Positions 12,141 through 52,711 of a stretch of 64,000 nt of DNA are shown here, piece by piece. Origin of the DNA: Prosopocoilus inquinatus. Taxonomy: Eukaryota; Arthropoda; Insecta; Coleoptera; Lucanidae. The notes beneath the pieces were generated by a model. It had not been told where the DNA came from. It did no database searches and worked only from the letters and a program-made list of their open reading frames with translations. The position numbers and the translations under genes were made by a program. The DNA is taken from the NCBI GenBank assembly GCA_036172665.1, contig JAYKNF010000013.1:1736001-1800000 (forward strand), read 5' to 3'. Each line of letters begins with the position of its first letter. The first letter of the stretch is position 1.

Positions 12141-14540
12141 TTTTTAGAAAAATTTTGTGCAAATCGTTTTTGATTGCAGCGAGAACCTCGAGCAGCCTCT
12201 GGACAGCTGTTTCAGCCCTGCTTGGGGCTTCTTCAGCAGAAACGTAGCTCGACATTCCCGCTGCAAACAAAAACGACTTGCCCAATTTATTCGCATTTGC
12301 GATGTAAGAGTGATGAACAGATAAAATAGCGACATCTTACTATCGCTTTTTGACCTAACATTGCAGTAGGGTAGACAAATTGAAGCGGGATTTGCTCCTA
12401 ATAAGTTCCCCATGCAAGGCGGCCATGCTTGCTGTCAAGGATAATGAAAATTTTAGAAAAATTTTGTGCAAATCGTTTTTGATTGCAGCGAGAACCTCGA
12501 GCAGCCTCTGGACAGCTGTTTCAGCCCTGCTTGGGGCTTCTTCAGCAGAAACGTAGCTCGACATTCCCGCTGCAAACAAAAACGACTTGCCCAATTTATT
12601 CGCATTTGCGATGTAAGAGTGATGAACAGATAAAATAGCGACATCTTACTATCGCTTTTTGACCTAACATTGCAGTAGGGTAGACAAATTGAAGCGGGAT
12701 TTGCTCCTAATAAGTTCCCCATGCAAGGCGGCCATGCTTGCTGTCAAGGATAATGAAAATTTTAGAAAAATTTTGTGCAAATCGTTTTTGATTGCAGCGA
12801 GAACCTCGAGCAGCCTCTGGACAGCTGTTTCAGCCCTGCTTGGGGCTTCTTCAGCAGAAACGTAGCTCGACATTCCCGCTGCAAACAAAAACGACTTGCC
12901 CAATTTATTCGCATTTGCGATGTAAGAGTGATGAACAGATAAAATAGCGACATCTTACTATCGCTTTTTGACCTAACATTGCAGTAGGGTAGACAAATTG
13001 AAGCGGGATTTGCTCCTAATAAGTTCCCCATGCAAGGCGGCCATGCTTGCTGTCAAGGATAATGAAAATTTTAGAAAAATTTTGTGCAAATCGTTTTTGA
13101 TTGCAGCGAGAAACTCGAGCAGCCTCTGGACAGCTGTTTCAGCCCTGCTTGGGGCTTCTTCAGCAGAAACGTAGCTCGACATTCCCGCTGCAAACAAAAA
13201 CGACTTGCCCAATTTATTCGCATTTGCGATGTAAGAGTGATGAACAGATAAAATAGCGACATCTTACTATCGCTTTTTGACCTAACATTGCAGTAGGGTA
13301 GACAAATTGAAGCGGGATTTGCTCCTAATAAGTTCCCCATGCAAGGCGGCCATGCTTGCTGTCAAGGATAATGAAAATTTTAGAAAAATTTTGTGCAAAT
13401 CGTTTTTGATTGCAGCGAGAACCTCGAGCAGCCTCTGGACAGCTGTTTCAGCCCTGCTTGGGGCTTCTTCAGCAGAAACGTAGCTCGACATTCCCGCTGC
13501 AAACAAAAACGACTTGCCCAATTTATTCGCATTTGCGATGTAAGAGTGATGAACAGATAAAATAGCGACATCTTACTATCGCTTTTTGACCTAACATTGC
13601 TATTTTATCTGTTCATCACTCTTACATCGCAAATGCGAATAAATTGGGCAAGTCGTTTTTGTTTGCAGCGGGAATGTCGAGCTACGTTTCTGCTGAAGAA
13701 GCCCCAAGCAGGGCTGAAACAGCTGTCCAGAGGCTGCTCGAGGTTCTCGCTGCAATCAAAAACGATTTGCACAAAATTTTTCTAAAATTTTCATTATCCT
13801 TGACAGCAAGCATGGCCGCCTTGCATGGGGAACTTATTAGGAGCAAATCCCGCTTCAATTTGTCTACCCTACTGCAATGTTAGGTCAAAAAGCGATAGTA
13901 AGATGTCGCTATTTTATCTGTTCATCACTCTTACATCGCAAATGCGAATAAATTGGGCAAGTCGTTTTTGTTTGCAGCGGGAATGTCGAGCTACGTTTCT
14001 GCTGAAGAAGCCCCAAGCAGGGCTGAAACAGCTGTCCAGAGGCTGCTCGAGGTTCTCGCTGCAATCAAAAACGATTTGCACAAAATTTTTCTAAAATTTT
14101 CATTATCCTTGACAGCAAGCATGACCGCCTTGCATGGGGAACTTATTAGGAGCAAATCCCGCTTCAATTTGTCTACCCTACTGCAATGTTAGGTCAAAAA
14201 GCGATAGTAAGATGTCGCTATTTTATCTGTTCATCACTCTTACATCGCAAATGCGAATAAATTGGGCAAGTCGTTTTTGTTTGCAGCGGGAATGTCGAGC
14301 TACGTTTCTGCTGAAGAAGCCCCAAGCAGGGCTGAAACAGCTGTCCAGAGGCTGCTCGAGGTTCTCGCTGCAATCAAAAACGATTTGCACAAAATTTTTC
14401 TAAAATTTTCATTATCCTTGACAGCAAGCATGGCCGCCTTGCATGGGGAACTTATTAGGAGCAAATCCCGCTTCAATTTGTCTACCCTACTGCAATGTTA
14501 GGTCAAAAAGCGATAGTAAGATGTCGCTATTTTATCTGTT
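12141..14540. repeat. Hammerhead-ribozyme satellite array A (5 minus + 3 plus units)
   Basis: Tandem 309-bp units, nearly identical to each other. Five ribozyme cores lie on the minus strand at 12188-12252, 12497-12561, 12806-12870, 13115-13179 and 13424-13488. Three lie on the plus strand at 13677-13741, 13986-14050 and 14295-14359. Orientation flips at 13592-13600 with a 2-bp microhomology (gc). The whole array is bounded by the exact 11-bp direct repeat aataaattaac at 12130-12140 and 14541-14551, inside the TIR element. The array therefore arrived in one insertion event, after the TIR element. Open frames of 60-90 codons across the units are by-products of the repeat. Confidence 0.93.
13677..13741 (+). 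ncRNA. Type I hammerhead self-cleaving ribozyme (representative satellite copy)
   Basis: Conserved core CTGAAGA is at 13693-13699. Stem II AGCCC (13700-13704) pairs with GGGCT (13711-13715) around loop CAAGCA. GAA is at 13716-13718. Stem III is the palindrome ACAG/CTGT (13719-13726), followed by C17 at 13727, giving a GTC cleavage triplet. Stem I pairs 13686-13692 with 13728-13734 and, beyond a small internal loop, TCGAGC (13677-13682) with GCTCGA (13736-13741). Pairing continues outward to about 13649 and 13770. The loopless palindromic stem III resembles that of other animal satellite hammerheads, which are thought to act as dimers. Predicted product: self-cleaved, probably circularised RNA of about 309 nt. 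Cleavage is not shown. Confidence 0.88.
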
Positions 14541-14973
14541 AATAAATTAACGATTAAAAATGAATTGCACTAAACTTAAGCACCACGGGCACTACGATTA
14601 CGATATGTAACAACAATGTACCAATGTCGAGTGTCGGCGTATGCGTCGCATATCACGTAACAGAAGTCTAGTAAATTTCTTATGTATTAAAATAGTATTA
14701 ATTAATAAATTCAATCATGTTTATAACTTATATTTTCCTACAAAATCTAATATCTTGTCAAATCTATAACTAAATTTATTATCCAAACGAACCTTTTTTA
14801 AAATGTGTCAAATTTATGTCATTAAACTGACATTCTATTCACGTGATTTATAAACGTCAAATTTTAAACAAAATATTTACGAAAAAATGACGTTTAAAAC
14901 TGGTCATTCGATGTCCTTGACCAATTTTGACCAAATAATGACGTGATAAAAACGACTGGTTGCTGCTTGGGTA

Positions 14974-16730: not shown

Positions 16731-16782
16731 GACTTAAACAGTTTACGTGAATTTACGCAATTTTTGAACATTGTTATAAGTG

Positions 16783-19565
16783 ATGAACAGATAAAATAGC
16801 GACATCTTACTATCGCTTTTTGACCTGACATTGCAGTAGGGTAGACAAATTGAAGCGGGATTTGCTCCTAATAAGTTCCCCATGCAAGGCGGCCATGCTT
16901 GCTGTCAAGGATAATGAAAATTTTAGAAAAATTTTGTGCAAATCGTTTTTGATTGCAGCGAGAACCTCGAGCAGCCTCTGGACAGCTGTTTCAGCCCTGC
17001 TTGGGGCTTCTTCAGCAGAGACGTAGCTCGACATTCCCGCTGCAAACAAAAACGACTTGCCCAATTTATTCGCATTTGCGATGTAAGAGTGATGAACAGA
17101 TAAAATAGCGACATCTTACTATCGCTTTTTGACCTGACATTGCAGTAGGGTAGACAAATTGAAGCGGGATTTGCTCCTAATAAGTTCCCCATGCAAGGCG
17201 GCCATGCTTGCTGTCAAGGATAATGAAAATTTTAGAAAAATTTTGTGCAAATCGTTTTTGATTGCAGCGAGAACCTCGAGCAGCCTCTGGACAGCTGTTT
17301 CAGCCCTGCTTGGGGCTTCTTCAGCAGAGACGTAGCTCGACATTCCCGCTGCAAACAAAAACGACTTGCCCAATTTATTCGCATTTGCGATGTAAGAGTG
17401 ATGAACAGATAAAATAGCGACATCTTACTATCGCTTTTTGACCTGACATTGCAGTAGAGTAGACAAATTGAAGCGGAATTTGCTCCTAATAAGTTCCCCA
17501 TGCAAGGCGGCCATGCTCGCTGCAATCAAAAACGATTTGCACAAAATTTTTCTAAAATTTTCATTATCCTTGACAGCAAGCATGGCCGCCTTGCATGGGG
17601 AACTTATTAGGAGCAAATCCCGCTTCAATTTGTCTACCCTACTGCAATGTCAGGTCAAAAAGCGATAGTAAGATGTCGCTATTTTATCTGTTCATCACTC
17701 TTACATCGCAAATGCGAATAAATTGGGCAAGTCGTTTTTGTTTGCAGCGGGAATGTCGAGCTACGTCTCTGCTGAAGAAGCCCCAAGCAGGGCTGAAACA
17801 GCTGTCCAGAGGCTGCTCGAGGTTCTCGCTGCAATCAAAAACGATTTGCACAAAATTTTTCTAAAATTTTCATTATCCTTGACAGCAAGCATGGCCGCCT
17901 TGCATGGGGAACTTATTAGGAGCAAATCCCGCTTCAATTTGTCTACCCTACTGCAATGTCAGGTCAAAAAGCGATAGTAAGATGTCGCTATTTTATCTGT
18001 TCATCACTCTTATCGTGATCGTAATCGTTTTTGATTGCAGCGAGAACCTCGAGCAGCCTCTGGACAGCTGTTTCAGCCCTGCTTGGGGCTTCTTCAGCAG
18101 AGACGTAGCTCGACATTCCCGCTGCAAACAAAAACGACTTGCCCAATTTATTCGCATTTGCGATGTAAGAGTGATGAACAGATAAAATAGCGACATCTTA
18201 CTATCGCTTTTTGACCTGACATTGCAGTAGGGTAGACAAATTGAAGCGGGATTTGCTCCTAATAAGTTCCCCATGCAAGGCGGCCATGCTCGCTGCAATC
18301 AAAAACGATTTGCACAAAATTTTTCTAAAATTTTCATTATCCTTGACAGCAAGCATGGCCGCCTTGCATGGGGAACTTATTAGGAGCAAATCCCGCTTCA
18401 ATTTGTCTACCCTACTGCAATGTCAGGTCAAAAAGCGATAGTAAGATGTCGCTATTTTATCTGTTCATCACTCTTACATCGCAAATGCGAATAAATTGGG
18501 CAAGTCGTTTTTGTTTGCAGCGGGAATGTCGAGCTACGTCTCTGCTGAAGAAGCCCCAAGCAGTGCTGAAACAGCTGTCCAGAGGCTGCTCGAGGTTCTC
18601 GCTGCAATCAAAAACGATTTGCACAAAATTTTTCTAAAATTTTCATTATCCTTGACAGCAAGCATGACCGCCTTGCATGGGGAACTTATTAGGAGCAAAT
18701 CCCGCTTCAATTTGTCTACCCTACTGCAATGTCAGGTCAAAAAGCGATAGTAAGATGTCGCTATTTTATCTGTTCATCACTCTTACATCGCAAATGCGAA
18801 TAAATTGGGCAAGTCGTTTTTGTTTGCAGCGGGAATGTCGAGCTACGTCTCTGCTGAAGAAGCCCCAAGCAGGGCTGAAACAGCTGTCCAGAGGCTGCTC
18901 GAGGTTCTCGCTGCAATCAAAAACGATTTGCACAAAATTTTTCTAAAATTTTCATTATCCTTGACAGCAAGCATGGCCGCCTTGCATGGGGAACTTATTA
19001 GGAGCAAATCCCGCTTCAATTTGTCTACCCTACTGCAATGTCAGGTGAAAAAGCGATAGTAAGATGTCGCTATTTTATCTGTTCATCACTCTTACATCGC
19101 AAATGCGAATAAATTGGGCAAGTCGTTTTTGTTTGCAGCGGGAATGTCGAGCTACGTCTCTGCTGAAGAAGCCCCAAGCAGGGCTGAAACAGCTGTCCAG
19201 AGGCTGCTCGAGGTTCTCGCTGCAATCAAAAACGATTTGCACAAAATTTTTCTAAAATTTTCATTATCCTTGACAGCAAGCATGGCCGCCTTGCATGGGG
19301 AACTTATTAGGAGCAAATCCCGCTTCAATTTGTCTACCCTACTGCAATGTCAGGTCAAAAAGCGATAGTAAGATGTCGCTATTTTATCTGTTCATCACTC
19401 TTACATCGCAAATGCGAATAAATTGGGCAAGTCGTTTTTGTTTGCAGCGGGAATGTCGAGCTACGTCTCTGCTGAAGAAGCCCCAAGCAGGGCTGAAACA
19501 GCTGTCCAGAGGCTGCTCGAGGTTCTCGCTGCAATCAAAAACGATTTGCACAAAATTTTTCTAAA
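16783..19565. repeat. Hammerhead-ribozyme satellite array C (8 cores, three orientation switches)
   Basis: Units of 309 bp, with stem I CTCTG instead of TTCTG; both pair with CAGAG. Cores on the minus strand: 16967-17031, 17276-17340 and 18049-18113. On the plus strand: 17756-17820, 18529-18593 (stem II mismatch GTGCT), 18838-18902, 19147-19211 and 19456-19520. Orientation switches lie near 17518, 18010 and 18293. The array is flanked by the 13-bp repeat attgttataagtg at 16770-16782 and 19566-19578; a few bases of this may belong to the satellite itself. Relative to array A the whole insertion is reversed, and its ends fall within a few bases of the same unit positions. Confidence 0.9.
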
Positions 19566-19839
19566 ATTGTTATAAGTGTAAATATGATTTTATTTCATTG
19601 TTATTAATGGAAATTTAATATTTTCTATAGCGGTTTTGGAATTTTTTAGACTTTTTATAAAGAATGATTTTTTTTCGAAAAATGAAAAATTAGAGGGTCT
19701 TCCTATAGTGAACTATATCCGTGGACACATTGTATATTGGACTCTATATTATACAAATTTCGCAAAAGTGTAGTAATTTTTTAAGTTTTCTGATTAGATA
19801 TAACAACCTTTAGAATCTTAATTTTACTATAATTTTATA

Positions 19840-19889
19840 AACAGATAAAATAGCGACATCTTACTATCGCTTTTTGACCTGACATTGCA
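19840..19889 (-). repeat. 50-bp satellite fragment
   Basis: The fragment starts aacagataaaatagcgacat and ends gacctgacattgca, the reverse complement of the last 50 bp of the satellite unit. Its ribozyme-sense 3' end is exactly the ctgtt terminus used by array A and the 42159-52711 insertion. The 5-bp repeat ttata flanks it (19835-19839 and 19890-19894). It is best read as a short, 5'-truncated copy. From 19890 to 20464 there is nothing else. Confidence 0.75.
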
Positions 19890-20464
19890 TTATACAACTA
19901 TAAAATTGTGAATAGCTTAAACATTGAGAAAAATGTACGAACGCTTTACTCGGATTCGTGTTAAAAAACGACTCAGTGTACTGACCTGCAAAATTTACAG
20001 TACGAGAATGCTTTTTTTTCAGCGATACACATAAGAAAAATTATTCTAAACGGTTATTTTCGCAGTAGTACGCTGTGTCGGTTTTTAAACGAAAGTGTCC
20101 CTTAATATTTTTCTCAGTGTATTAATTTTATAAATTACCTGAAAGTGTAAAGAATGATATCTCGAAACAACTTATATTTTTTTTAAGTACGACAAACTTT
20201 CATACGCTTTTTAAGGAAAATTGTGTATTAATATGCGATACAAAATATATAGGTATTTTTTTATTTACAAAAAAAAAAACATTTTCCGAGAAAAAAATTA
20301 TTTTTCTACTGGAAACCGATTTACAATTTTAAACTGAAATTGGGGACTAGTTAAATAAACAATAAACATTTTCTATGTACTATACAAATATATATTATAT
20401 AGACTACATACATTAAAAGTTATTCAAATTATATACATAACTTTAACAACTAAACTAAATGTGT

Positions 20465-20605: not shown

Positions 20606-20612
20606 TTGAAGT

Positions 20613-23579: not shown

Positions 23580-23705
23580 ATGGACAAAAAGAAAACGATC
23601 GGCAAACAGGGAAAAATAATTCACAGCCAGGCACGTGAAAACACAGCTAATGTGCTGGAATTCATGAAAGACGAAGCAGAATATTGTATAACAATTGAAT
23701 TCCAA
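23580..23705 (+). pseudogene. N-terminal fragment of an insect DDE transposase (tentative)
   Basis: From an ATG at 23580 the reading is MDKKKTIGKQGKIIHSQARE followed by NTANVLEFMKDEAEY. This resembles the N-terminus of insect transposase-like proteins of the type K-QG-I--V--F---EAE. It stops where the gypsy fragment begins. About 290 bp upstream (23288-23579) could be its leader, but no TIR was identified. Confidence 0.35.
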
Positions 23706-24318
23706 ATCGTTCCAAAATCGTACTCCTGAAGTCGTTCGATCCATCGTGCAACTTGCCCTTCTGGGTTCTTGAAACGGAGAAGCCATTTTAGAGCGGCGTG
23801 GTCGGTCCTCAGCAGGAAGCGTCTACCATACAAGTACTTGTAGAAGTGTTCTATCGTTTTTACGACGGCTAGCAATTCCCTTCTTGTGACGCAATAGTTT
23901 CGTTCCGGCTTTGATAGGACTTTACTGAAGTAGCCGATCACCTTCTCTTGCCCCTCTTGTATCTGGGAGAGTACGCCACCAATCCCAACGTTGCTAGCAT
24001 CTGTGTCCACGACGAACTTGCCTTCCGGGAGAGGATAACTCAGAATAGGAGCACTAATCAAATACTGCTTTAGTTGTTCAAAGCCAATTTGACACTGTTG
24101 GTCCCATTCAAATGGACGACCTTCTTCAGTGAGTTTTGTCAACGGCTTAGCAATGTCTGCAAATCCAGGAACGTAGCGCCGATAGTAAGTGCACAGGCCA
24201 AGGAAACTCCTTATTTGGTGTTTATTTCTGGGAGTTGGCCAGTCTTTCACCACCTGAATCTTCACAGGGTCCACGGCGATTCAATTTCCATTAACAATGT
24301 GCCCCAGGTAATTCACTT
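23690..24318 (-). pseudogene. Ty3/gypsy pol fragment: RT end and RNase H
   Basis: The minus strand reads YLGHIV then DPVKIQVVKDWPTPRN (RT thumb), FLGLCTYYRRYVPGFADIAK, then RNase H with FVVDTDASNVGIGGVLSQ and RRELLAVVKTIEHFYKYLYG up to RTDHAALKWLL. A stop lies just before DPVKI near 24280. The fragment is truncated at both ends. It adjoins the old satellite pair at 24345 and the transposase fragment at 23580-23705. No LTR, gag or integrase accompanies it. Confidence 0.85.
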
Positions 24319-24344
24319 CAATTAAAAATAACTTGGTAGATACT

Positions 24345-24905
24345 AAAAATATATAAAAAAAATTGTTGCAAATCGTTTTTGATTGCAGTGAAAACCTCGA
24401 GCTGCCTCTGTACAGCTGTTTCAGCCCTGTTTGGGGCTTCATCAACAGAGACGTAGCTCGACAATCTCACTGCAAACCAAAAACAACTTGTACAATTTAT
24501 TCGCATTTGCGATGTAATAGTGATGAACAGATAAAACAGCGACATCCTACGATCGCTTTTTGACCTGACATTGCAATAGGATAGACAAACTGAAGCCGGA
24601 TTTGCTACTAATAAGTCCCCCATGCAAGGCGGCCTTGCTTGCTGTAAAAGCATAATGAAAGTTTAAAAAGAAAATTGTTGCAAATCGTTTTTGTCAGGTC
24701 AAAAAGCGATCGTAAGATGTCGCTGTTTTATCTGTTCATCACTCTTACATTGCAATTGGGAATAAATTGGACAAGTCGTTTTTGTTTGCAGTGAGAATGT
24801 CGAGCTACGTCTCTGCTGACGAAGCCCCAAGCAGGGCTGAAACAGCTGTACAGAGGCTGCTCGAGGTTTTCACTGTAATCAAAAACGATTTGCAACAATT
24901 TTTTT
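24345..24905. repeat. Old hammerhead satellite pair (one minus, one plus)
   Basis: A diverged minus unit (core 24397-24461) meets a plus unit (core 24800-24864) head to head near 24687. The plus core has CTGACGA and cleavage residue A (GTA). Both changes fall at positions where hammerheads tolerate variation (N7 and H17). The minus core has C3 changed to T, which should abolish cleavage. These copies differ from all the arrays and are probably older. They mark the outer end of the left inverted-repeat arm. Confidence 0.8.
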
Positions 24906-25959
24906 TTAACTAAAAATATAGTAAATATAATGTTATATCATTTTTATCGTCTCTTCAAGGGCTAACCAAAACTATAATAAAATATATGGTGTTCCATTTA
25001 AAAAATAAAATAATAAGTTAGGTTTGTAACTTATTAAATGAACAGCCTGAAATGAATGAATACCTACACAACTTTTGTTAAGACCTTTGCTTGATAAAAT
25101 GAATTTAAAGGGCCATTATTGGACTTTTTCAAAGGTTTGGGACACCCTGTACACCAAAGTTAGTAGTATATGAGACTGCCTCATGCAATATCGGACGGAT
25201 TCGACATTTTTCGTATGAGTCTCAGAACTACGTCACTCGTCCAAGCTGAAGCTCCATTAAAAATCATCCGAATAGTTGCGTTGTTATGGCAACGGCACCG
25301 ACTATACGTGCACCGTGGATCGCGACCAACCGAAATCGAAACAGTCTAGTCTGACGTCACGAGAGACCTCACGGACACCCCCACCAGCGCGACCCCGCAT
25401 TCGGCTTTATGCATGTAAATCCAAGCTTATAAGATAACTTCTCATATATAAACTTTGACTGTACACAACTTCTTAAGCTTAAGGCGCGCCGACTTTAAAC
25501 TGTGCGAAATTGTAGCGAGAACGGTTGTGCTGCTGTCCTAGACGACTTGCTACAGCGAACTTTATATGACTAATATAAATTTTCATCGGAACAGATAGAT
25601 ATAAGTACATTAAACTGACAACGTGAAGGATAACTGATTATTGTACGAATTAATTTTATAGTAGGTGATCGACAGATAGGCCTGAGCGGCCTGCGTTGAA
25701 ACTCCATTACGCGATTAGACTTTTTCGTAAACGATCTTGTGTGACTATTTGCGGTGACACACCGAGAAATCAAAAATTAAAGCCAACTAAACTACATGCT
25801 TGTAATTTCAAAATTATTGTTGGTTATTGGGGGTGTTCGACAAAAGACACCTCGAGTTAGCCTTGAAAAACGAATCGTATGTAGCAGCTCGCACAATCAA
25901 TTTCTTATATGTCAGCAATTGATCATCCTAAATGACAACTGAATTAAAAATAATTCCAA

Positions 25960-26995
25960 CCCATCTCAGGGTAAATTCAATCAACTAGACTCAATGTAAT
26001 GTAAACTAACTGACACAAGAAAGAAATAGAAATTAAAAAAATGTGAAAAAAATGAAAATTAGAACTGAATTACATCAAGATCAACGTCACTAAAGACAAC
26101 CTAACTCTTTCCAACTAAAACAGATAAAAAGATGAGATAAAATTAAGTTTTGCCATCTAAAGGTCAACTCAACACAACGTAGCTCAGCTCCACCCAAGAA
26201 AAAAAAATGAACAATTGAAACAAGAATTAAAATTCAAATTAATTTAAGTAATTTAACTCGGGAAAAAATTTAAAACTCAGTTGGAAATAAATGTAATTAT
26301 ACTCAGCTCAACTCGACTTGACTCAAGCCAAACAAAAAGTAGAACTAAAAAAATAAACGAATTCTTTAAAAATTAACGCTGATCAAGTCCAACCCGTTCG
26401 AAGGTCAACCTAATCCAACTCACCTTAACATAAGTCTATTGAACCCAAGATAAAAAAAAACTATCAAAAGTTAAAAAAAATGAAAAGTGATTAAAATTAT
26501 GTCCATCCCAATCCAAAGTCGACTCAAGCAAAAAATTTAACGTAATTCTGTTTAATCAAAACAAAAAATTAGAAAAATAAAAACTGAACTAAAGTCTAAC
26601 CCAACCCAATTATTATAAAATAACTTACCAACTGTTTCCAAACGAAACACCAATTTATAAATTAAGAAAAATAACAAATTATTTAAACTAAACTATTAAA
26701 ATTGCGATAAAATGAAGTTTGGCCATCTCAAGCTCAATTCAACAGAACCTAGCTCTGCCCCACCCAAGCAAAAAAATTTAAAGAAATAAACCAAAAATTA
26801 AATCTAAAATTTAATCAAATCAACTCGAGGAAAAAAATAAAATTTAATTGGAAATAAATCCAACATTACTCAACTCGACTCGACTCAACCCAAGCAAAAG
26901 AAGAAATAAAAAAATGAAAACTAAATTAAAAAAAATTAAATTTGATTAGCTCCACCCTAACTGAAAGTCAATACAGTTCAACACCACTCCACATA
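25960..26995. repeat. Degenerate minisatellite of actcaactcgact/aaaaa units
   Basis: About 1 kb of loosely repeated units. Each has a ctcaactcgactcaa-like block, then caagcaaaaaa, then an A-rich spacer with aaactgaattaaa. Unit spacing varies around 100 bp. The same block is present reversed at 61070-62110. No coding potential. Confidence 0.6.
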
Positions 26996-27022
26996 ATTCT
27001 TCAAGAGGTGTATTTGTTTTTT

Positions 27023-41506: not shown

Positions 41507-42158
41507 TTACAAAGTGCTAAATTCGTCATCTTCAGAACTGTCGTTGTTTTCACTACTGTCACTATCAGAATGCACTGTACTTTCTATAAGTAAATTTCGA
41601 ACTTCAACGCGAAGCGTATTTTTTTGTTTCCGTAATTTTAGACTGATGGTAGATAGAACTGGATCAGATGTTACCAACAGTCTACGAAGCACATCTTCCA
41701 TATTAGCCAGTCGAGATATTTTTCTGCTATGTTCTCTTCTATATTTTCTTAGATCTTTATGCCGTGCCTCTTGGGCTTCCTCAGATAATTGACCAGTAGG
41801 AAGAACAGCAGCTTCAATAACTTTTGCCCCATGAATCAAAATTTTATGGACACTGGAAGGCATGTAGTACCACGAATAGAGATCAACATACAGTCTGGCT
41901 GATGTCATCGCGTACTGATTAAATGCATTGACATTTATAGAAAGCCCAGTTGAAATGGTAGGATAACTCTAAAACATCTAATTAAATCAATATTGATGCC
42001 AGTGATGTCAGAGGCCTTTTCCGGATTTTGGAAAAACTGTCTAGCAGTGTTGCCGTCATCGGACGTGCCGCTTCCTCCGGGTCTAGGTTTGTCCACTTGT
42101 AACCCCATCTCCTTGCGGAATCGTTCTTGAATTTGTTTTTTCTTTGCTTCATATTTAC
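41507..42158 (-). pseudogene. Transib transposase, C-terminal part
   Basis: From the insertion breakpoint the reading is KKKQIQERFRKEMGLQVDKP, GTSDDGNTARQFFQNPEKAS, then a frameshift near 41940. It continues YVDLYSWYYMPSSVHKILIH and QLSEEAQEARHKD to a stop at 41507. The Glu encoded at 41768-41770 (QEARHK) lies where RAG1 has its third catalytic acid. In RAG1-family proteins this region completes the RNase H-like active site together with two Asp residues encoded in the N-terminal part. The acidic tail (DSDSSENNDSSEDDE) is close to the C-terminus. Confidence 0.88.
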
Positions 42159-43040
42159 GAAAAATTTTGTCCAAATCGTTTTTGATTGCAGTGGAAACCT
42201 CGAGCAGCCTCTGGACAGCTGTTTCAGCCCTGCTTGGAGCTTCTTCAGCAGAAACGTAGCTCGACATTCCCACTGCAGACCAAAAACGACTTGCCCAATT
42301 TATTCGCAAATGCGATGTAAGAATGATGAACATATAAAATAGCGACATCTTACTATCGCTTTTTGACCTAACATTGCAGTAGGATAGACAAATTGAAGCG
42401 GGATTTGCTCCTAATGAGTCCCCCATGCAAGGCGGCCATGCTTGCTGTCAAAGCATAATGAAAGATTTTAGAAAAATTTTGTGCAAATCGTTTTTGATTG
42501 CAGTGGAAACCTCGAGCAGCCTCTGGACAGCTGTTTCAGCCCTGCTTGGGGCTTCTTCAGCAGAGACGTAGCTCGACATTTCCACTGCAAACAAAAACGA
42601 CTTGTCCAATTTATTCGCAATTGCGATGTAAGAGTGATGAAGAGATAAAATAGCGACATCTTACTATCGCTTTTTGACCTGACATTGCAGTAGGATAGAC
42701 AAATTGAAGCGGGATTTGCTCCTAATAAATCCCCCATGCAAGGCGGCCATGCTTGCTGTCAAAGCATAATGAAAATTTTTTTAGAAAAATTTTGTGCAAA
42801 TCGTTTTTGATTGCAGTGAAAACCTCGAGCAGCCTCTGGACAGCTGTTTCAGCCCTGCTTGGGGCTTCTTCAGCAGAGACGTAGCTCGACATTTCCACTG
42901 CAAACAAAAACGACTTGTCCGATAGTAAGATGTCGCTATTTTATCTCTTCATCAGTGGAAACTTCGAGCAGCCTCTGGACAGCTGTTTCAGCCCTGCTTG
43001 GGGCTTCTTCTTCTCTGCTGAAGAAGCCCCAAGCAGGGGC
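42159..43040 (-). repeat. Hammerhead-ribozyme satellite array E
   Basis: Minus-strand cores at 42200-42264 (stem II changed to AGCTC, so one mismatch), 42512-42576 and 42825-42889. After 42910 the unit breaks up: a head-to-head join at 42920-42955 is followed by a partial core, and ttcttcttctctgctgaaga at 43006-43025 forms a fold-back of the ribozyme region. This scrambled junction leads into the inverted-arm sequence at 43050. Confidence 0.88.
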
Positions 43041-44454
43041 AAGCTGAAACAGAAATTTTTAAATTTCAATTGAAAAATGTAGTCGCCTTGGTATGTGAGA
43101 TTTGAAGTTTGCAATTCAATAACCAGAATTTTGTACAATATGCTTCTTGATTGGGGTTTAATTGCTCGCGGCAAAGCGGAACAATTCTTCTCTTGTTGAT
43201 ATAATTTAGAAGTGAAACACTGAATAGATTTCGTACTTTAATATACTAAAATCTACATACTACATAACATTACAAGTTTAAAACAAGTACACGTAAGTAA
43301 ATTAGACCGAACATGTCGAGGATGTTGTAGTAATGTCTTCTCTTGGCGTTAAAGAATTTATATATATTCTCAAACAGAGACGCGAATAGAAAAATACATA
43401 AGTGATTCACGGAATTAATAAAATAAGAACAGGGGAGGTTTTGGTTGTGATAAAATTCAAAGAAGTTCTCAGCGTTATCGTTGCATTAATAGAGTGGACA
43501 AATGCTCTTAATGCTTGTTCCGTGAATAGGTAAAAAAAGGTGGTCCTCGATATCTTCGAGCGTCTAAGGAACAGGTGCAGTCCCTTGTTTATCGCACGCG
43601 TATATTTAATATGAAGAAAATATGACGCTTAAGTTGTAGGTTTCAAGTGATTTTTAGAATTAGATCATTCAAAGTGTTCGGATTAAAAAGAATAGATTTT
43701 ACGTAGAACCTTAACATTAATGCATACGCGGAAAGGTAAAGTCACAATTTCAATTAAGACTTTACTCGGAAGGACTGGCGATAGAAAGAATGCGTAACAT
43801 GTCTAAGGAGATTAAACTAAATAAGTATAAAGGTATTATCCTAACAAAATACAGTTTTCAATGTTGAGTTGAGTTCAAGAGTGGAAAAGAATTCAGGTCA
43901 CTTAGTGTCGGACCTTATTTACGGCGAATGTACTATTTACTCCTCACCTTTCCGCGATTTAAATTACGCGTTCGCGTAAAACGATTTTTAAAAAATCGAA
44001 AATTTATTGGAAGAAATACAAAAATTGAGATTAATCGAATAAGGCAATGTTAAAGCCACGACATTCAGACTAATACTACTGTTACAATGCAATGCACTAA
44101 TCTACTAAAAACAAAGCGTCAGCACGATGCAATACACCGTGTTGAGATAAGCGATGCTGCGGCGGCCGTACTCGGAACGTAACACGCGGCTTCGACGGTT
44201 CCACGCATCGAATTGTTTTTGAGTGTAAGGAGAAAGAGTGCAATAAGAACATTCGCATTTCGGTGAAATTATTGTGGGTGAGGCTGATATAGTCCGAGTA
44301 CTAAATTTTCGTACCATTCGCGGAACAAGTGGCCCGAAATCTTTTCACTGGTCATTAACTTTCATTTTTTCACAAAATTATTTACTCAAAAAAGCCTGAT
44401 TACCTGTACAGCAGACTATCTTACAGAACAGATATCTACAATATCAATGTTAGA

Positions 44455-44577
44455 AGGAAGGGTCAATATCGTTCAATATCATAACAACATACCAGAAACA
44501 CTAAAATCTTTAACGATTATCTCATTTAAACGACATATGAAAGCATTTTTGCTACGTAATCAGCGTAATCATGATTA
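44455..44577 (+). pseudogene. Possible non-LTR ORF2 C-terminal tail
   Basis: The reading NNIPETLKSLTIISFKRHMK then AFLLRNQ and a stop resembles the tail after the RT of many insect non-LTR elements (LP--IK----F-R-LK-FLL). The upstream frame is short and diverged. The twin lies reversed near 58310-58430. The rest of 44278-45010 is unassigned. Confidence 0.4.
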
Positions 44578-45988
44578 GAGAATATTGAATTACCGTAATT
44601 CAACATTCACTAATCATTTGCTAAATTATCATCACACTATCTCTTTAGATAATCTAGAAATTTTATTTGTTGAGATGAAGTGGTGAAGGTGTTAGAAGCG
44701 CATTTGCACTGGATATTTCATAAGGAGAGGATTCTCCGAGATAAAATTTTCCTAGTGTTCTTAACTTGCGGTGTGTGGGTGTGACTTGCTCTCATCTGTA
44801 GGTTGTTTTTTTTTTGACGATTTATACCTAATATATACCGGGTGGAAAGTTTCAAACCCGAACATAGCAAAGTTCCTCTGAGAACTACGTTTCTGTAGAT
44901 TACTGCTCACCATTTAAAGATACAAAAATGGTAATGGTATTAAATAAGAGATAAAATTAAGGCCAATGTTATCGTGTTAAAATTATTCCTATTCTGTTAA
45001 TATTTTTGAAATAGAAATTAAATTTTTAAATTTCAATTGAAAATGTAGTCGCCTTGGTATGTCAGATTTGAAATTTGCAATTCAATAACCAGAATTTTGT
45101 ACAATATGCTTCTTGATTGGGGTTTAATTTCTCGCGGCAAAGCGGAACAATTCTTCTCTTGTTGATATAATTTAGAAGTGAAACACTGAATAGATTTCGT
45201 ACTTTAATATACTAAAATCTACATACTACATAACATTACAAGTTTAAAACAAGTACACGTAAGTAAATTAGACCGAACAGTGTCGAGGATGTTGTAGTAA
45301 TGTCTTCTCTTGGCGTTAAAGAATTTATATATATTCTCAAACAGAGACGCGAATAGAAAAATACATAAGTGATTCACGGAATTAATAAAATAAGAACAGG
45401 GGAGGTTTTGGTTGTGATAAAATTCAAAGAAGTTCTCAGCGTTATCGTTGCATTAATAGAGTGGACAAATGCTCTTAATGCTTGTTCCGTGAATAGGTAA
45501 AAAAGGTGGTCCTCGATATCTTCGAGCGTCTAAGGAACAGGTGCAGTCCCTTGTTTATCGCACGTGTATATTTAATATGAAGAAAATATGACGCTTAAGT
45601 TGTAGGTTTCAAGTGATTTTTAGAATTAGATCATTCAAAGTGTTCGGATTAAAAAGAATAGATTTTACGTAGAACCTTAACATTAATGTATACGCGGAAA
45701 GGTAAAGTCACAATTTCAATTAAGACTTTACTCGGAAGAACTGGCGATAGAAAGAATGCGTAACATGTCTAAGGAGATTAAACTAAATGAGTATAAAGGT
45801 ATTATCCTAACAAAATACCTAAGAAAATTTACATGAAATAATGTGCATTCTTAAATATAATTGATACATAGAAGTATTTGAATAAAATAATGATACACAT
45901 TCGTCATTTTCTGAACACTTCTAACTTAGAACAAATGTAAAATCTAAAATGTTAAAAAGGTCCCAACATGCCGCCCACCTTGAAAGGC

Positions 45989-46450
45989 TTAACTTTCAAT
46001 AGGAAGCACACGTATCTTAGCTACAGAACGTTTGTAAACGCCACTCGCGGTCATGATTGTCACCACTCTCACCAAATTTCGTTTCCGGGATGCACGTGCG
46101 TTATATGACCCAATTTCCAGTAAAGTGGAGGCAAGTTGTCTTCCTTCACAAGAACCATCGTTCCGGGTTTGAGGCTTTGTTGGCAAGTTGTCTTCCACCG
46201 AACGCGTTGTTGCAGTTCGGAGATGTACTCTTTAGACCAGCGTCTCCAAAAATGTTGCTGGAGTTGTTGGAGCTTCTGATAAAGGTCTAGCCAAGATTCT
46301 GGGATGTGAAGCACGCTTGGATTCGGAATTGTTGTTAGATTTTCTCCAATTAGAAAGTGTGCGGGTGTAAGGGAATTTAAATCATTTGGATCGGAAGACA
46401 GTGGTGATAAAGGTCGGGAGTTGAGGCAAGCTTCGATCTGCACTAAAACA
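45989..46450 (-). pseudogene. BEL/Pao pol C-terminus (integrase tail), left copy
   Basis: The minus strand reads CLNSRPLSPLSSDPNDLNSL, TPAHFLIGENLTT, then QHFWRRWSKEYISELQQRVR, VLVKEDNLPPLYWKLGHI and, after a frameshift at 46070, RVVTIMTASGVYKRSV ending LPIES. This is the conserved integrase C-terminal region of BEL/Pao elements. Upstream pol is missing. A purine-rich stretch (aaggtgggcggca on the minus strand) precedes tgttgggacc at 45968, the probable start of the 3' LTR, which runs to lower coordinates. A TATA-like atatatataaatt lies near 45330. The LTR's far end is not resolved. Confidence 0.85.
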
Positions 46451-46963
46451 CTTAACTTAAATTAACTTAACTTAAATTAGCATTTTTCATAATTCGTTTT
46501 AAATGAAATTTTTGCAACCATTATTCAACGAGGCACGAGGGTGACACGGTAATATCTCTTGTACAAATTTGCGAAAAACTAACAGAGAAGTGTCAAATTA
46601 ACCAATAATCATTATGGTAACTTGTCTGTCATTTTATAACAAATTTTTGCATTCTTTTTACAAAAACTATCATCGTATCATATGGCTCTTAATTAAAAAT
46701 AAATAAAATAAGAATAATGTCTGCAAACGGCAAAATATTAAACATCCTCAGACTAGTTAGATTTGGACATATGTTAGGGTATACAAAGATATGGAGAATT
46801 TTATGGAAGGTCCAAATTTGACATGACATATGGGTGTCTCATTTGAAATTAAAAAAAAAAATTATTCAACTCCAGTGTTTTGATTTATCCTGTACAGATG
46901 ATGTTGCAGACTTCTAAAATTTAGAGTAAAAATAACTTGAAACTTTTATTGGATCTTCAATAG

Positions 46964-47299
46964 TGTTACGTTTCTATGGGTTTTAATTTATTTATTTAAA
47001 CGAATAAAACACTGGGTAAAAACTTAATCGTAATTTAATAACGCTTACAAACTAATTTATTTGTAACAATTTATTTACACACTAAAAATCTAACTTCGAC
47101 GATCGCTGTTAGAATTCGACTGACTGCTGAGTCAACTTCGGCCGATTTTATATCATTTGCTGCCGTCTGGAATTCTCTAACGCTGGAAAAGTCTAGTCTG
47201 TTCGATGTAGGCCCCGGTGGCGTGATGGCCGATGACGCATAACAGCGAACCGACTTCTTGACGCCTTCAGCGTGACGTAGTACTGAGCGGCTCGCCACA
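46964..47299 (-). mobile_element. Solo LTR (336 bp) present only in the left arm
   Basis: The minus strand starts TGTGGCGAGC and ends CGTAACA. It is flanked by the 4-bp repeat atag (46960-46963 and 47300-47303). The right arm at 55945 has the empty site (…caatagtaatcg). It contains a TATA-like gatataaaatcg and polyadenylation-like gtaaataaa. Size, ends and 4-bp duplication fit a Ty3/gypsy solo LTR. It inserted after the arms were duplicated. Confidence 0.88.
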
Positions 47300-48853
47300 A
47301 TAGTAATCGACACGTTGTTCGAGAACACACTTGCAGAATAAAAAATTATTCTTCGTGCTTTTCTCGTCTTACGTAAGAGTGTAAAAAGCTTTGCCATTCT
47401 CGCCCTCTCTTTCTTTTCTTAATTATTTATTGTGATTTTTTCTTGTTTTATGATTGATTGTTTTATAATTCCCGTCACCTTATCAGTCCTAAAAATCGCC
47501 CGTCTAAAACGAAATCCCCTTATCTATCAACATTGTTACTTATTGATTCACAAGCGTTTCTAATTATTTTTTTTCCGCTTCATTAACATAATAAATTCCT
47601 ATCGATTTTCCAAGGGCGCTTCCTCTAATAAATTCAAACGAGTACTCTAGCTTGAGCCATACTTCTCTTCAGACCTGAAATAAATTGTTACAAGAGCATC
47701 AAGTATGTAAGAATCCAGATTATTATCATTATTTCTTTTTTGTGCAATTCAGTACATTTTATTTTTTTTCATGTCAAAGTATGATTCATTGGAAAATACA
47801 AAATTAAACATAGACATAAACAGCTTGTATAACGAGAGCATTAGTCAGCCTGCAATATTAAGAATTTACATTACCGATGAGGGCGCCACCGCCGTTACCA
47901 ATATGGTGGTTGTGTGCGGTATAGTTGGTAATTGTCAATTGACAAGTGTAAAATGTCATATAGTCTCTGGTTATCATTAAATCTGAATGCATGTTTAAAG
48001 ATGTTTTTGCTATAATTCTTGATTAGTATACATATCTGTAAGAGATAAGAGCTCATTTGACGACGCAACGTCGTACCGATTACCGAAATCCCGATGAATA
48101 AGAAACGCATTTGCAATAACATTGTTGTGTATATAGCTGTCATTCCAAGGAAGGACGGGAACGGCATATAAGCTTTCACCAATTCCCCAAACCGAATAGT
48201 AGTTATGTTTTTACGACGATATACACTGCTCCAATAAATTAACGCACCACGCTATTAAATAAGAAATTTTCAATTTTTTATCCAAAATTTATAGAAACTG
48301 GCATTTCTATGAAATAGCTAAGCATATTAGGTTCGTTTCCCAACATTTATTTATATTCGACTATCACTTAAGGGCGATTCCATAGAATTAAATCACATTA
48401 AATTTTATTAACCATAAAATCAATTTCAGTTTTACTGTTTAAATTTAGGTTTTATTCTTTAAGTGACTTTATTGTTTTTTGTTTTTATATTTCATCGTCA
48501 TTATACCACATGAATTTCGAAATTTGACCAAAGAAAAATGCACTCAAGCAGTGGTATTGTTAGAATAAGACGAAAGCTATTGTCGAGTAGGAGGAAGATT
48601 CAGTGTGTCCCAAAACTCGGTGTGCCGAATGCACAGTGGGCGAAATCGGAAATCTAGCCGGCCAAAATTCGAAAAATGAAGTAATAAATATTTTAAATTT
48701 ATTGCTGTACTATTGTTACCAGATGTCGAAGGGTACCTACAGTATCCCTTCTCCACTCGCTAAGTATTTGAAAACCCCTCTTAAGTCCGAACTTTTAAAA
48801 ACAGTTAAATTGCGCTCCGTAATATGTAGTTTTCGAGTGTAAATAAAATTGCT

Positions 48854-50617
48854 ATTTTATCTGTTCATCATTCTTACATCGCAATTGCGAATAAATTGGG
48901 CAAGTCGTTTTTGGTCTGCGGTGGGAATGTCGAGCTACGTCTCTGCTGAAGAAGCCCCAAGCAGGGCTGAAACAGCTGTCCAGAGGCTGCTCGAGGTTTC
49001 CACTGCAATCAAAAACGATTTGCACAAAATTTTTCAAAAATTTTCATTATGCTTTGACAGCAAGCATGGCCGCCTTGCATAGGGGACTTATTAGGAGCAA
49101 ATCCCGCTTCAATTTGTCTATCCTACTGCAATGTCAGGTCAAAAAGCGATAGTAAGATGTCGCTATTTTATCTGTTCATCATTCTTACATCGCAATTGCG
49201 AATAAATTGGGCAAGTCGTTTTTGGTCTGCGGTGGGAATGTCGAGCTACGTCTCTGCTGAAGAAGCCCCAAGCAGGGCTGAAACAGCTGTCCAGAGGCTG
49301 CTCGAGGTTTCCACTGCAATCAAAAACGATTTGCACAAAATTTTTCAAAAATTTTCTTTATGCTTTGACAGCAAGCATGGCCGCCTTGCATAGGGGACTT
49401 ATTAGGAGCAAATCCCGCTTCAATTTGTCTATCCTACTGCAATGTCAGGTCAAAAAGCGATAGTAAGATGTCGCTATTTTATCTGTTCATCATTCTTACA
49501 TCGCAATTGCGAATAAATTGGGCAAGTCGTTTTTGGTCTGCGGTGGGAATGTCGAGCTACGTCTCTGCTGAAGAAGCCCCAAGCAGGGCTGAAACAGCTG
49601 TCCAGAGGCTGCTCGTGGTTTTCACTGCAATCAAAAACGATTTGCACAAAATTTTTCAAAAATTTTCATTATGCTTTGACAGCAAGCATGGCCGCCTTGC
49701 ATAGGGGACTTATTAGGAGCAAATCCCGCTTCAATTTGTCTATCCTACTGCAATGTCAGGTCAAAAAGCGATAGTAAGATGTCGCTATTTTATCTGTTCA
49801 TCATTCTTACATCGCAATTGCGAATAAATTGGGCAAGTCGTTATTGGTCTGCGGTGGGAATGTCGAGCTACGTCTCTGCTAAAGAAGCCCCAAGCAGGGC
49901 TGAAACAGCTGTCCAGAGGCTGCTCGAGGTTTCCACTACAATCAAAAACGATTTGCACAAAATTTTTCAAAAATTTTCCTTATGCTTTGACAGCAAGCAT
50001 GGCCGCCTTGCATAGGGGACTTATTAGGAGCAAATCCCGCTTCAATTTGTCTATCCTACTGCAATGTCAGGTCAAAAAGCGATAGTAAGATGTCGCTATT
50101 TTATCTGTTCATCATTCTTACATCGCAATTGCGAATAAATTGGGCAAGTCGTTTTTGGTCTGCGGTGGGAATGTCGAGCTACGTCTCTGCTGAAGAAGCC
50201 CCAAGCAGGGCTGAAACAGCTGTCCAGAGGCTGCTCGAGGTTTCCACTGCAATCAAAAACGATTTGCACAAAAAATTTTTCAAAAATTTTCATTATGCTT
50301 TGACAGCAATCATGGCCGCCTTGCATAGGGGACTTATTAGGAGCAAATCCCGCTTCAATTTGTCTATCCTACTGCAATATCAGGTCAAAAGCGATAGTAA
50401 GATGTCGCTATTTTATCTGTTCATCATTCTTACATCGCAATTGCGAATAAATTGGGCAAGTCGTTTTTGGTCTGCGGTGGGAATGTCGAGCTACGTCTCT
50501 GCTGAAGAAGCCCCAAGCAGGGCTGAAACAGCTGTCCAGAGGCTGCTCGAGGTTTCCACTGCAATCAAAGACGATTTGCACAAAATTTTTCAAAAATTTT
50601 CATTATGCTTTGACAGC
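48854..50617 (+). repeat. Hammerhead-ribozyme satellite array F (six units)
   Basis: Units of 311-312 bp, all plus. Cores are at 48930-48994, 49241-49305, 49552-49616, 49863-49927 (core CTAAAGA, G5 changed), 50174-50238 and 50486-50550. Stem I is CTCTG/CAGAG. The outer stem has GCGGTGGGAA opposite TTTCCACTGC, a compensated variant of array A. The last unit is interrupted by a solo LTR at 50618; the same array continues at 51975. Confidence 0.9.
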
Positions 50618-51970
50618 TGTTACAGTCGATTTTGTTATTACGCATTTATTTCCGATTCGGCTAAGAACTGGCAACGTTGCTACTGGACGCCTACCGGCAA
50701 CGCTCGGCGTTGTGTCATCTGGCAACGCTGTAACATTCGCGGCAGGAAGCGATTCTTTCAAATTAATAATTTCTTATTGGTGTTTAATCTCCGTCTTCTG
50801 ACGTCATAATTTTCCCATTGGTTTGGCCATTTTGTGTAGTCTATAAAACGGAAATCATCTTCTTCAGCGGCCATTGTGTATTACGGGCATTCCTTCTTCT
50901 GACTCGGGCGAGGGCAGACGCATATTCAGTGCTATCGACGGTTTGTGTTTGTTTAAACAAAACCACTTTTCTACGGATTTTCCGGAAGCAAATATCTCTC
51001 CCGAGTCTTGTGGAACGTTTATACGTTCACGTCCAACGAGTTTGCTAAGTAGCAGGTATGTTTAATTAATTCGTTCGTTACACGTGGTTAATGGTTGTTT
51101 TTTTCGCCCCCTTTCAGAGTCGTTTGTTTGTTGTTGGTTATTGTTACTGATTGCATTAGTATTAGTACTGAGCGTTGGTATCAGTTCCCGAATGGGTATG
51201 TGAACATTTCGAATACGAAACGCACCTGTGTTTGAATCGCTGGACTCCGTTGCGACATTAGAGCGAGACAGACATCTGGAGTTGGACCGCCGTTGGCAGC
51301 ATTGCTGATTGAAAATCGTCTTGGAACGAAGCGGCGCCTACCAACTAGTGACATCTTACGCTTCTCGCAGGAACTGGAGCTCAGCTGAGCGACAAAGAGT
51401 GACGTATACCATTATTATTTTGATTCGAATTGCATGCCGACTATTTTACCGAACACGAAAGCAACTTACGTATTTAATAGTTCGTAACTTAGTTTAATAT
51501 TTAAGTAACGTCTACGTAAATTTCGTGGTGTCTTTGGAGCACCGATTGTGAGGTCAGATCTGTCCATCCCGCGTATTATGGTTATCATTTAAAGTTTTGA
51601 TAGGTTACAATTTAAACATTGTTAAATTTTGTTCAACTAGTGTATGTGTGTGTTAATAAACACCGTATCACCGAACGTGTTTTGCTTATGTTAATCTCCT
51701 ACTTTGAACGCATCAAGAGAGGAAAAATCTCCTGGAGAAAATTGAGAATACTTCAAGCGCGCACATTGAGGCCTTGGGAAAGCATCAAAGTGTGTTTGAC
51801 AATTGGGAAGGTAATTCCCTGGCGCCCTATTTGTTTATATTTAGTTACCCCGCCCATTCTCCACCAAGTTCAGCCGTGGCAACCAGTTGTCCAAAGACAA
51901 CGCTATCTGTTACCAGTATTACGATGTTGGAATCCAGGAGTATTAGCTTTTAAATCTTTTGGTGGTAACA
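50618..51970 (+). mobile_element. Solo LTR (1353 bp) inside the satellite array
   Basis: It starts TGTTACAG and ends GGTAACA, and is flanked by the 4-bp repeat cagc (50614-50617 and 51971-51974). Joining the flanks restores the satellite unit exactly. A TATA-like ctataaaacgg lies near 50840 and an aataaa signal at about 51656. No gag or pol is present. It is younger than the array it interrupts. Confidence 0.85.
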
Positions 51971-52711
51971 CAGCAAGCATGGCCGCCTTGCATAGGGGAC
52001 TTATTAGGAGCAAATCCCGCTTCAATTTGTCTATCCTACTGCAATGTCAGGTCAAAAAGCGATAGTAAGATGTCGCTATTTTATCTGTTCATCATTCTTA
52101 CATCGCAATTGCGAATAAATTGGGCAAGTCGTTTTTGGTCTGCGGTGGGAATGTCGAGCTACGTCTCTGCTGAAGAAGCCCCAAGCAGGGCTGAAACAGC
52201 TGTCCAGAGGCTGCTCGAGGTTTCCACTGCAATCAAAAACGATTTGCACAAAATTTTTCAAAAATTTTCATTATGCTTTGACAGCAAGCATGGCCGCCTT
52301 GCATAGGGGACTTATTAGGAGCAAATCCCGCTTCAATTTGTCTATCCTACTGCAATGTCAGGTCAAAAAGCGATAGTAAGATGTCGCTATTTTATCTGTT
52401 CATCATTCTTACATCGCAATTGCGAATAAATTGAGCAAGTCGTTTTTGGTCTGCGGTGGGAATGTCGAGCTACGTCTCTGCTGAAGAAGCCCCAAGCAGG
52501 GCTGAAACAGCTGTCCAGAGGCTGCTCGAGGTTTCCACTGCAATCAAAAACGATTTGCACAAAATTTTTCAAAAATTTTCATTATGCTTTGACAGCAAGC
52601 ATGGCCGCCTTGCATAGGGGACTTATTAGGAGCAAATCCCGCTTCAATTTGTCTATCCTACTGCAATGTCAGGTCAAAAAGCGATAGTAAGATGTCGCTA
52701 TTTTATCTGTT
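51971..52711 (+). repeat. Hammerhead-ribozyme satellite array G (continuation of F)
   Basis: Cores at 52154-52218 and 52465-52529, both with intact CTGAAGA, stem II, GAAAC and GTC. The array ends at 52711 with gctattttatctgtt, next to the 12-bp duplication and the Transib transposase. Confidence 0.9.

Follow-up and report, generated by a model that had tools for sequence, protein, structure and literature searches.

Insertions of a hammerhead repeat in the window

We analyzed a 64,000-nt stretch of the genome of the beetle Prosopocoilus inquinatus (contig JAYKNF010000013.1, positions 1,736,001 to 1,800,000; hereafter, the window, with coordinates counted from its first letter), which contains arrays, A1 to A7, of a 309- to 313-bp unit with a type I hammerhead motif. 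An initial annotation had placed a hammerhead satellite family between 12141 and 52711, which proved to be the exact ends of two insertions. The window arrays are mostly insertions: exact 12- to 13-bp direct repeats directly abut the unit sequence on both sides in four of the six arrays (A1, A2, A6, and A4-A5, the last counted as one). All four duplication-flanked insertions are minus-strand on the left and plus-strand on the right, so that 5′ sides meet. In a random control, 28 of 3,000 random pairs reached 12 bp, mostly with far longer matches.

The outer ends fall at two places in the unit, alpha (about unit position 17) and beta (about 189), whose windows were set after early loci had been seen. 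In the window, 12 of 13 outer ends are located at 16 to 20 (alpha) or 184 to 191 (beta), the thirteenth being the right end of A7 at 64, and none of the 13 is at the cleavage site (unit 130). None of 20,000 random draws was clustered as tightly, also when A7 was left out. Monomers released by the ribozyme would have their ends at unit 130. Since the insertions do not begin there, priming inside a longer RNA or a circle can be argued, and arms of several units fit a circular template.

The A1 insertion lies between copies of TAATAAATTAAC (12129 to 12140 and 14540 to 14551) and consists of a minus-strand left arm of 4.7 units (12141 to 13600; outer end beta, unit 190) and a plus-strand right arm of 3 units (13599 to 14539; outer end alpha, unit 16), which meet head to head in a 2-bp microhomology, GC, at 13599-13600. 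A2 (16783 to 19565), between 12- to 13-bp copies of ATTGTTATAAGTG at 16770 to 16782 and 19566 to 19578, has minus arms at 16783 to 17515 and ~18023 to 18288 and plus arms at 17516 to ~18013 and 18289 to 19565; its −/+ junction is present twice, at 17516 and 18289, with identical sequence, and its outer ends are alpha on the left and beta on the right. The A2 junction, like that of A1, was resolved exactly and has a 2-bp microhomology. The arms of one insertion differ from each other by 0.24% in A1 and 0.32% in A2, and diagnostic variants are common to both arms. A6 is an older two-arm insertion (24354 to 24908, minus then plus, meeting near 24692; junction not resolvable) with beta at both outer ends, flanked by ACTAAAAATATA at 24342 to 24353 and 24909 to 24920.

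A4 and A5 are 5.8 kb apart, yet they are two arms of one insertion that interrupts a transposon reading frame. The target duplication (CTTCATATTTAC) lies inside this frame at 42147 to 42158 and again at 52712 to 52723. The minus-strand A4 arm (42159 to 43052; outer end beta) has about 2.5 units followed by short alternating fold-back pieces (42920 to 43052), and the plus-strand A5 arm has a first part of 5.7 units of 311 bp (48851 to 50617) and a second part (51970 to 52711; outer end alpha, unit 17) after a solo long terminal repeat (LTR)–like insertion. When the insertion is left out (42147 to 52711) and one 12-bp copy kept, the transposon frame is open and aligns without gaps over 133 residues to a relative. 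The 5.8 kb between the arms are mostly a copy of neighboring sequence; therefore, the locus was rearranged later. A unit frame of A4 that runs into the transposon protein (open reading frame 41935 to 42447) could be taken for a ribozyme inside a coding exon; it was rejected as a coincidence, as the empty-site join puts the in-frame junction at the edge of the target duplication.

No recognizable target duplication was found for A3 or A7. A3 (35776 to 37592) is minus-strand only, with 5.8 units of 312 bp and beta at its left end. Two variants take turns along the array, the pattern recurring every second unit, as if a dimer had been the template or unequal crossing-over had expanded the array. 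A7 is an older two-arm copy (62772 to 63077; minus 62772 to 62877, plus 62884 to 63077) whose flank is common with A6 and whose right end is neither alpha nor beta. Two fragments of ~55 bp also end at alpha (unit 16): one on the plus strand at 5315 to 5369, within a TAA microsatellite, and one on the minus strand at 19838 to 19892, with only a 7-bp repeat at its ends.

The ribozyme core and the predicted RNA

A pattern count of CTGANGA followed by GAAAC gave 37 matches in the window versus 0.61 expected. The matches at 1684, 3402, and 43018 are not full hammerheads of the family, the first two coming from another repeat and the third being a fold-back piece. With a fuzzy anchor, 37 family copies were found, and CTGANGA, GAAAC, and the GTC or GTA triplet are intact in 33 of them; in the other four, C3 is changed (24440), G5 is changed (49884), stem III and the triplet are changed (62862), or the copy is a fold-back piece (43007). 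A structural descriptor (CTGANGA, GAAA, stem I of at least 3 bp, stem II of at least 3 bp, stem III of at least 2 bp, and UH) recognized 33 hammerheads in the window and none on either strand of the reversed sequence. A representative type I hammerhead spans 13677 to 13741 on the plus strand, with CTGAAGA at 13693 and predicted cleavage between 13727 and 13728.

Stem II is AGCCC/GGGCT with the loop CAAGCA, stem III is the palindromic ACAGCTGT, and the open-ended stem I is GTYTCTG/CAGAGGC with a UAC/U internal loop. The two loop elements for a possible loop I–loop II contact, the UAC/U internal loop and CAAGCA, are present. N7 is A and H17 is C in the copies, with C or T at N7 and A at H17 in the older A6 and A7. 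The initial annotation had counted about 36 cores, described stem II and its loop, the palindromic stem III, and the internal loop of stem I, and noted variation at the permitted positions N7 and H17; its description agrees with ours, the deviations at these positions being those of A6 and A7 only.

In an alignment of 14 copies, standard pairs occupy 98.1% of 644 pair cells, compared to 35 to 44% when the pairing was slid as a control. Both partners differ in two pairs, a number equaled in 122 of 500 shuffles; six cells carry a double change versus 1.7 in shuffles, and 1 of 500 shuffles reached six. The covariation signal is small. Among five younger units, variable columns number 1 of 61 in the ribozyme and 27 of 248 in the rest (P = 0.023); with the old A6 unit added, they number 6 of 61 and 47 of 248 (P = 0.13). 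The evidence for selection on the ribozyme is weak.

Tandem Repeats Finder reported periods of 309, 311, and 312 bp, and the guanine-cytosine (GC) content of the unit is 41 to 44%. The circular RNA predicted from it has a minimum free energy (MFE) of −112 to −117 kcal/mol, compared to averages of −73 to −76 for shuffled sequences (z about −7.5). It is predicted to form the rod that the initial annotation had anticipated, with stem I extending over about 40 base pairs. No reverse transcriptase (RT) or GIY-YIG frame was found in the unit, and the longest frames in A1 and A2 units are about 100 amino acids. A frame of about 96 to 101 codons is open across the ribozyme, e.g., at 13902 to 14192 on the plus strand (MSSYVSAEEAPSRAETAVQRLLEV...); a protein search with the unit-only frame gave nine candidates and no relative at E 0.01. 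Pattern searches of viral and prokaryotic sequence collections gave no matches, as expected.

A second repeat carries a stretch like CTGACGAAGCTATA..GAAAC at 1663 to 1757, 3390 to 3453, and 38120 to 38214, the third copy having CTAACGA. At 1684, 3402, and near 38193, these copies look like hammerhead cores; they were ruled out, as they do not pass the descriptor.

Two-arm copies in a sample of genomic loci

The 649.6-Mb assembly contains 12,243 exact 34-nt cores and none of the reversed pattern. Among the matches listed, for the first 100 places, neighboring cores less than 1 kb apart are 18 times −+, never +−, three times −−, and once ++, versus every order for cores at least 3 kb apart. We fetched 60 of 77 clusters and obtained 82 blocks, of which 80 are away from locus ends and 72 are at least 60 bp long. 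Among these 72 blocks, 55 are two-armed and head to head (−+; 87 to 925 bp long, mean 427), and none is two-armed and tail to tail (+−). A duplication of at least 9 bp (9 to 14 bp) flanks 44 of the 72 blocks compared to 4 of 300 mismatched flanks; 42 of these 44 blocks are two-armed, and the commonest length is 12 bp (23 of 44).

Of the 55 two-arm blocks, 43 have one alpha and one beta end, 12 have another end, and none was classed as having alpha twice or beta twice. Overall, alpha or beta occupies 111 of 128 outer 3′ ends, none of the 128 coming within 5 nt of the predicted cut. The inner ends are scattered; arm length is highly variable, and 21 of 110 arms exceed 309 nt. A hold-out of eight further clusters gave −+ in all eight, alpha with beta in six, and a duplication of at least 9 bp in six. 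Arms diverge on average by 2.0% within an insertion (41 pairs) versus 3.8% between insertions. Just outside duplications of 11 to 13 bp, GTT is read outward on 20 of 58 sides (29 two-arm insertions) versus 1.9%, a pattern that points to cuts placed symmetrically before GTT on the two strands.

Multi-kilobase arrays do exist in the window (A1, A2, and A4-A5 are longer than all 55 sampled two-arm blocks); the satellite nature proposed by the initial annotation did not hold, the copies in the genome sample being dispersed insertions, 44 of 72 with a duplication of at least 9 bp. The duplications, the head-to-head polarity, the two start sites, and the link to Penelope elements described below are absent from that annotation.

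Penelope-like elements in the same genome

A regular-expression search for GIY-YIG and RT motifs over 351,440 bases returned a single Penelope frame, plus one match apparently due to chance. The frame, of about 558 amino acids, has RVT_1 (8.1e-9) and GIY-YIG (1.8e-6) domains. It lies in a locus (L033/L077) between inverted arms (94% and 82% identical) flanked by a 13-bp duplication; a tail of about 34 nt is present on one arm and missing from the other. One arm of this element at L033 contains a retrozyme copy whose empty site is visible in the other arm. A protein search of the genome gave 83 matches, among which the three opposite-strand neighbors within 5 kb are all −+ (by eye). Exact copies of the arm motif CTGAAGATGGCAGCTTAGCTGCCGAAATACGTA, similar by eye to a minimal hammerhead core, number 1,170 in the genome; for 100 places, among the matches listed, opposite-strand neighbors within 5 kb are −+ in 11 cases and +− in none. 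In a small Penelope pair (L082), the duplication is 12 bp long, a flank reads AAC, and one arm is tailed and the other untailed. The footprint of a 12- to 13-bp duplication with one tailed and one untailed arm was thus seen in two of four Penelope two-arm loci.

In the window, a Penelope-like arm (63079 to 63458, minus strand) that begins at the tailed end of the element abuts A7 directly. At another locus, picked by the Penelope search alone, a retrozyme copy (L079, 622 to 1005; C8:8969121-8969504) is located ~50 bp from a Penelope arm. We do not claim a preference of the retrozyme for a Penelope neighborhood, as two of the three cases (L033/L077, A7, and C8/L079) were reached via a retrozyme.

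Comparison with known systems

Metazoan non-LTR retrozymes (Cervera and de la Pena 2020, PMC7229834) have a type I hammerhead, units of ~170 to 400 nt in tandem, a GC content below 50%, no LTR, highly self-paired RNA, and, when present, target duplications longer than 4 bp; stem III in invertebrates consists of two base pairs under a tetraloop. The kinship with them proposed in the initial annotation was confirmed for the tested sequence features. The repeat has a type I hammerhead in a 309- to 313-bp unit with 41 to 44% GC. It forms direct tandem multimers (up to about eight units in window arrays, with only 21 of 110 sample arms exceeding one unit). It lacks LTRs, its arms being inverted and not direct, has duplications longer than 4 bp, and is predicted to give a highly self-paired RNA. 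In contrast to the retrozymes of that report, whose main text contains the words “inverted” and “orientation” 0 times, most sampled copies here are short and head to head, with two arms, two fixed starts, a peak of 12-bp duplications, and GTT flanks.

The purified Penelope protein of Anolis (Frangieh et al. 2024, PMC11167929) acts on both target strands, cutting and extending them, with two internal RT starts that are not homologous to the target; it is a predicted dimer with an AT-rich target and an ATT motif on each strand, and a hammerhead is present. That element has its own protein and adjacent start sites, whereas the retrozyme is protein-less and its sites are ~140 to 170 nt apart on a small predicted circle; the preferred motif is ATT there and GTT here. 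For Penelope elements of Adineta vaga (PMC3846280), head to head is the commonest inverted arrangement, examples have 8- to 10-bp duplications, and one arm may have a tail; these elements are protein-coding, their duplications are shorter, and some copies have none. Few-hundred-base type I hammerhead repeats of satellite or satellite-like nature are described from Schistosoma (W-elements, PMC8490949), Dolichopoda (pDo500, PMC2808323), and newts, with no head-to-head two-arm insertions in the descriptions of PMC8490949 and PMC2808323. Hammerhead-processed circular RNAs have been proposed as retrotransposition templates for plant LTR retrozymes (PMC4918200), which differ from the present repeat by their LTRs, 4-bp duplications, Gypsy-type helper, and type III hammerheads.

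A model of retrozyme insertion

We think it likely that the repeat is a non-autonomous metazoan retrozyme that is inserted mostly as two head-to-head arms and copied by a Penelope-type enzyme from a predicted ribozyme-made RNA circle. According to this model, a multimeric transcript would self-cleave after GUC to 309-nt monomers, which a host ligase such as RtcB may close into rod-like circles, by analogy with published retrozymes. The next step would fall to a Penelope-like enzyme with RT and GIY-YIG domains, probably dimeric, which would introduce cuts 12 bp apart into the two strands of an AT-rich target, preferably before GTT on each; the duplications and the flank preference are what we observe of this step. 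One 3′ end would prime at alpha and the other at beta, the positions at which the ends are observed, both being just outside the base of the predicted rod. Two cDNAs, extending over part of the circle to several rounds, would be joined head to head at scattered positions, in keeping with the architecture of the copies. We infer a Penelope enzyme as the inserter since the retrozyme footprint resembles that of Anolis and Adineta Penelope elements. Head-to-head arms, a short duplication, and two internal starts are observed in the retrozyme, as well as in two of four Penelope loci of the same genome.

We lean slightly toward a more far-reaching proposal, in which retrozymes would be parasites of Penelope: a dimeric enzyme would cut 12 bp apart and prime both strands at once on a single ribozyme-made circle, at alpha and beta; head-to-head copies would be the normal product; and the helper of animal retrozymes would thereby be identified. 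The inserting enzyme and the circular template of animal retrozymes have so far been undecided, PMC7229834 naming Penelope as no more than a strong candidate. The sampled loci have a readable footprint of priming on both strands from two fixed internal starts, none of which is at the ribozyme’s own ends, and the helper question becomes directly testable with one protein and one RNA. The dual-strand target-primed reverse transcription that is suggested here could be a natural model for inserting small circular RNAs. Inverted two-arm retrozymes with alpha-beta pairing were not reported in the open-access literature searched.

A number of observations weigh against the model. Regarding the ribozyme, no hammerhead model of Rfam 15 matched at its gathering cut-off; when E values up to 10 were admitted, Hammerhead_HH9 alone appeared, at 14.5 to 18.4 bits (cut-off, 52), and never Hammerhead_1. 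The initial annotation had made its claim depend on a covariance-model match, and this check, taken literally, went against it. The missing match is a negative computational result and not proof against activity; because of it, the ribozyme was assigned from the descriptor, the conserved core, and the resemblance to retrozymes in the literature. In addition, stem II is closed by an A-U pair, and the fold able to cleave lies 6.0 kcal/mol higher than the MFE fold, which replaces stem III (nearest-neighbor calculation without tertiary contacts).

Other such observations come from the copies themselves. Among the 72 blocks, 14 are single-armed, 3 are complex, and 28 have no duplication of at least 9 bp. 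A6, with beta at both ends, is an exception to the alpha-beta rule; so is a complex block outside the strict count with beta at both ends (L015), and the L033 copy, classed as alpha with another end, is alpha with alpha by eye. The own arm was the closest or tied in only 14 of 41 pairs; thus, a single template per insertion is unproven. The sample was chosen by exact core, which favors copies with a ribozyme, and comprises the window and 68 of the 77 clusters in the first 7 Mb of a single contig. On the Penelope side, the retrozyme copy inside the Penelope arm at L033 has no duplication. Of the small Penelope pairs, one (L081) has no duplication and one shortened end, and at another locus (C8, L079 with L080), the flanks are long mutual repeats, and neither ends nor a short duplication were resolved in the pieces fetched. 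The unit has no significant similarity to the Penelope arm (best E 0.076), and alpha and beta are ~140 to 170 nt apart on the circle versus ~34 nt between the two Penelope ends here.

Alternative explanations

The same retrozyme could be mobilized by a long interspersed nuclear element (LINE), e.g., the endonuclease-RT element at 5800 to 9454, with twin priming at A-T-rich sites, which we regard as unlikely. In favor of a LINE, hammerhead repeats of Nematostella with 15-bp duplications have been likened to LINEs (PMC4918200), and an avian R2 protein is reported to cleave both target strands (PMC12222951). LINE RT and endonuclease domains lie within the window. LINEs give duplications in this length range, and twin priming yields inverted 5′ ends. 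However, twin priming is a minority outcome of L1, whereas 55 of 72 blocks are two-armed here, 43 of these 55 with alpha and beta. The Penelope arms of this genome, the only elements that our comparison covers, have the same polarity; in two of four loci, they also agree with the retrozyme in the length of the duplication and in the pairing of two ends. An ordinary tandem satellite that spreads via unequal crossing-over, with a decayed or inactive hammerhead, would account for the tandem units, the low divergence within arrays, the missing Rfam match, and possibly the dimer alternation of A3. It is very improbable given that the sampled copies are dispersed, often duplication-flanked, and mostly two-armed with fixed ends, and that 33 of 37 cores are intact; large local head-to-tail arrays were not what the sample contained. 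Local expansion after insertion is possible for A3 and A5.

The inverted arms and the narrow range of duplication lengths would also be expected of a non-autonomous DNA transposon, fold-back or similar to miniature inverted-repeat transposable elements, with the arms as terminal inverted repeats. Since the termini differ (alpha versus beta) in 43 of 55 two-arm blocks, identical inverted termini and thus a common terminal inverted repeat are absent; the scattered inner ends and widely variable arm lengths also speak against such an element, to which we give hardly any weight. Lastly, the circle might in addition replicate from RNA to RNA as viroids do, the DNA copies being by-products. The rod-like circular fold and the strong self-pairing are in line with this idea, but the descriptor, applied to both strands, found no hammerhead antisense to the units, and thousands of genomic copies could explain expression without RNA replication, so that this scenario, too, appears highly implausible next to copying of the retrozyme by a Penelope-type enzyme.

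Neighboring sequence in the window

A large inverted duplication pairs 25435 to 29645 with 58629 to 62653 and 43854 to 48858 with 54382 to 59011, the pieces being 94 to 99% identical. It carries chemoreceptor-like frames, and its left copy is split, with part lying between arms A4 and A5. A protein search with the chemoreceptor-like sequence gave 961 candidates and no relative at E 0.001; on another frame, the Pfam family 7tm_7 matched weakly (3.7e-4), below the cut-off.

The transposon interrupted by A4-A5 is represented by fragments, at 41507 to 42146 and 52724 to 53919 (minus strand), that belong to a widespread protein family with the motif GNTARRFF. The pieces scanned matched no Pfam family above the cut-off; the protein has 324 relatives, and among the best 120 of 324, those with a species name are mostly in insects. 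Other transposon frames are located at 5800 to 9454, 10203 to 10976, 23621 to 24280, 31378 to 33250, 46069 to 46461, 56442 to 56834, and 63344 to 63907; the types among them are an endonuclease-RT LINE, a Tc1/mariner-type transposase, an LTR-element RNase H, and DUF5641. The solo LTR-like insertion in A5 (50618 to 51969) reads TGTTAC...GTAACA, contains a TATA-like stretch, and has, by eye, the duplication ACAGC. A near-perfect hairpin at 359 to 439 has a weak match to an unrelated microRNA model.

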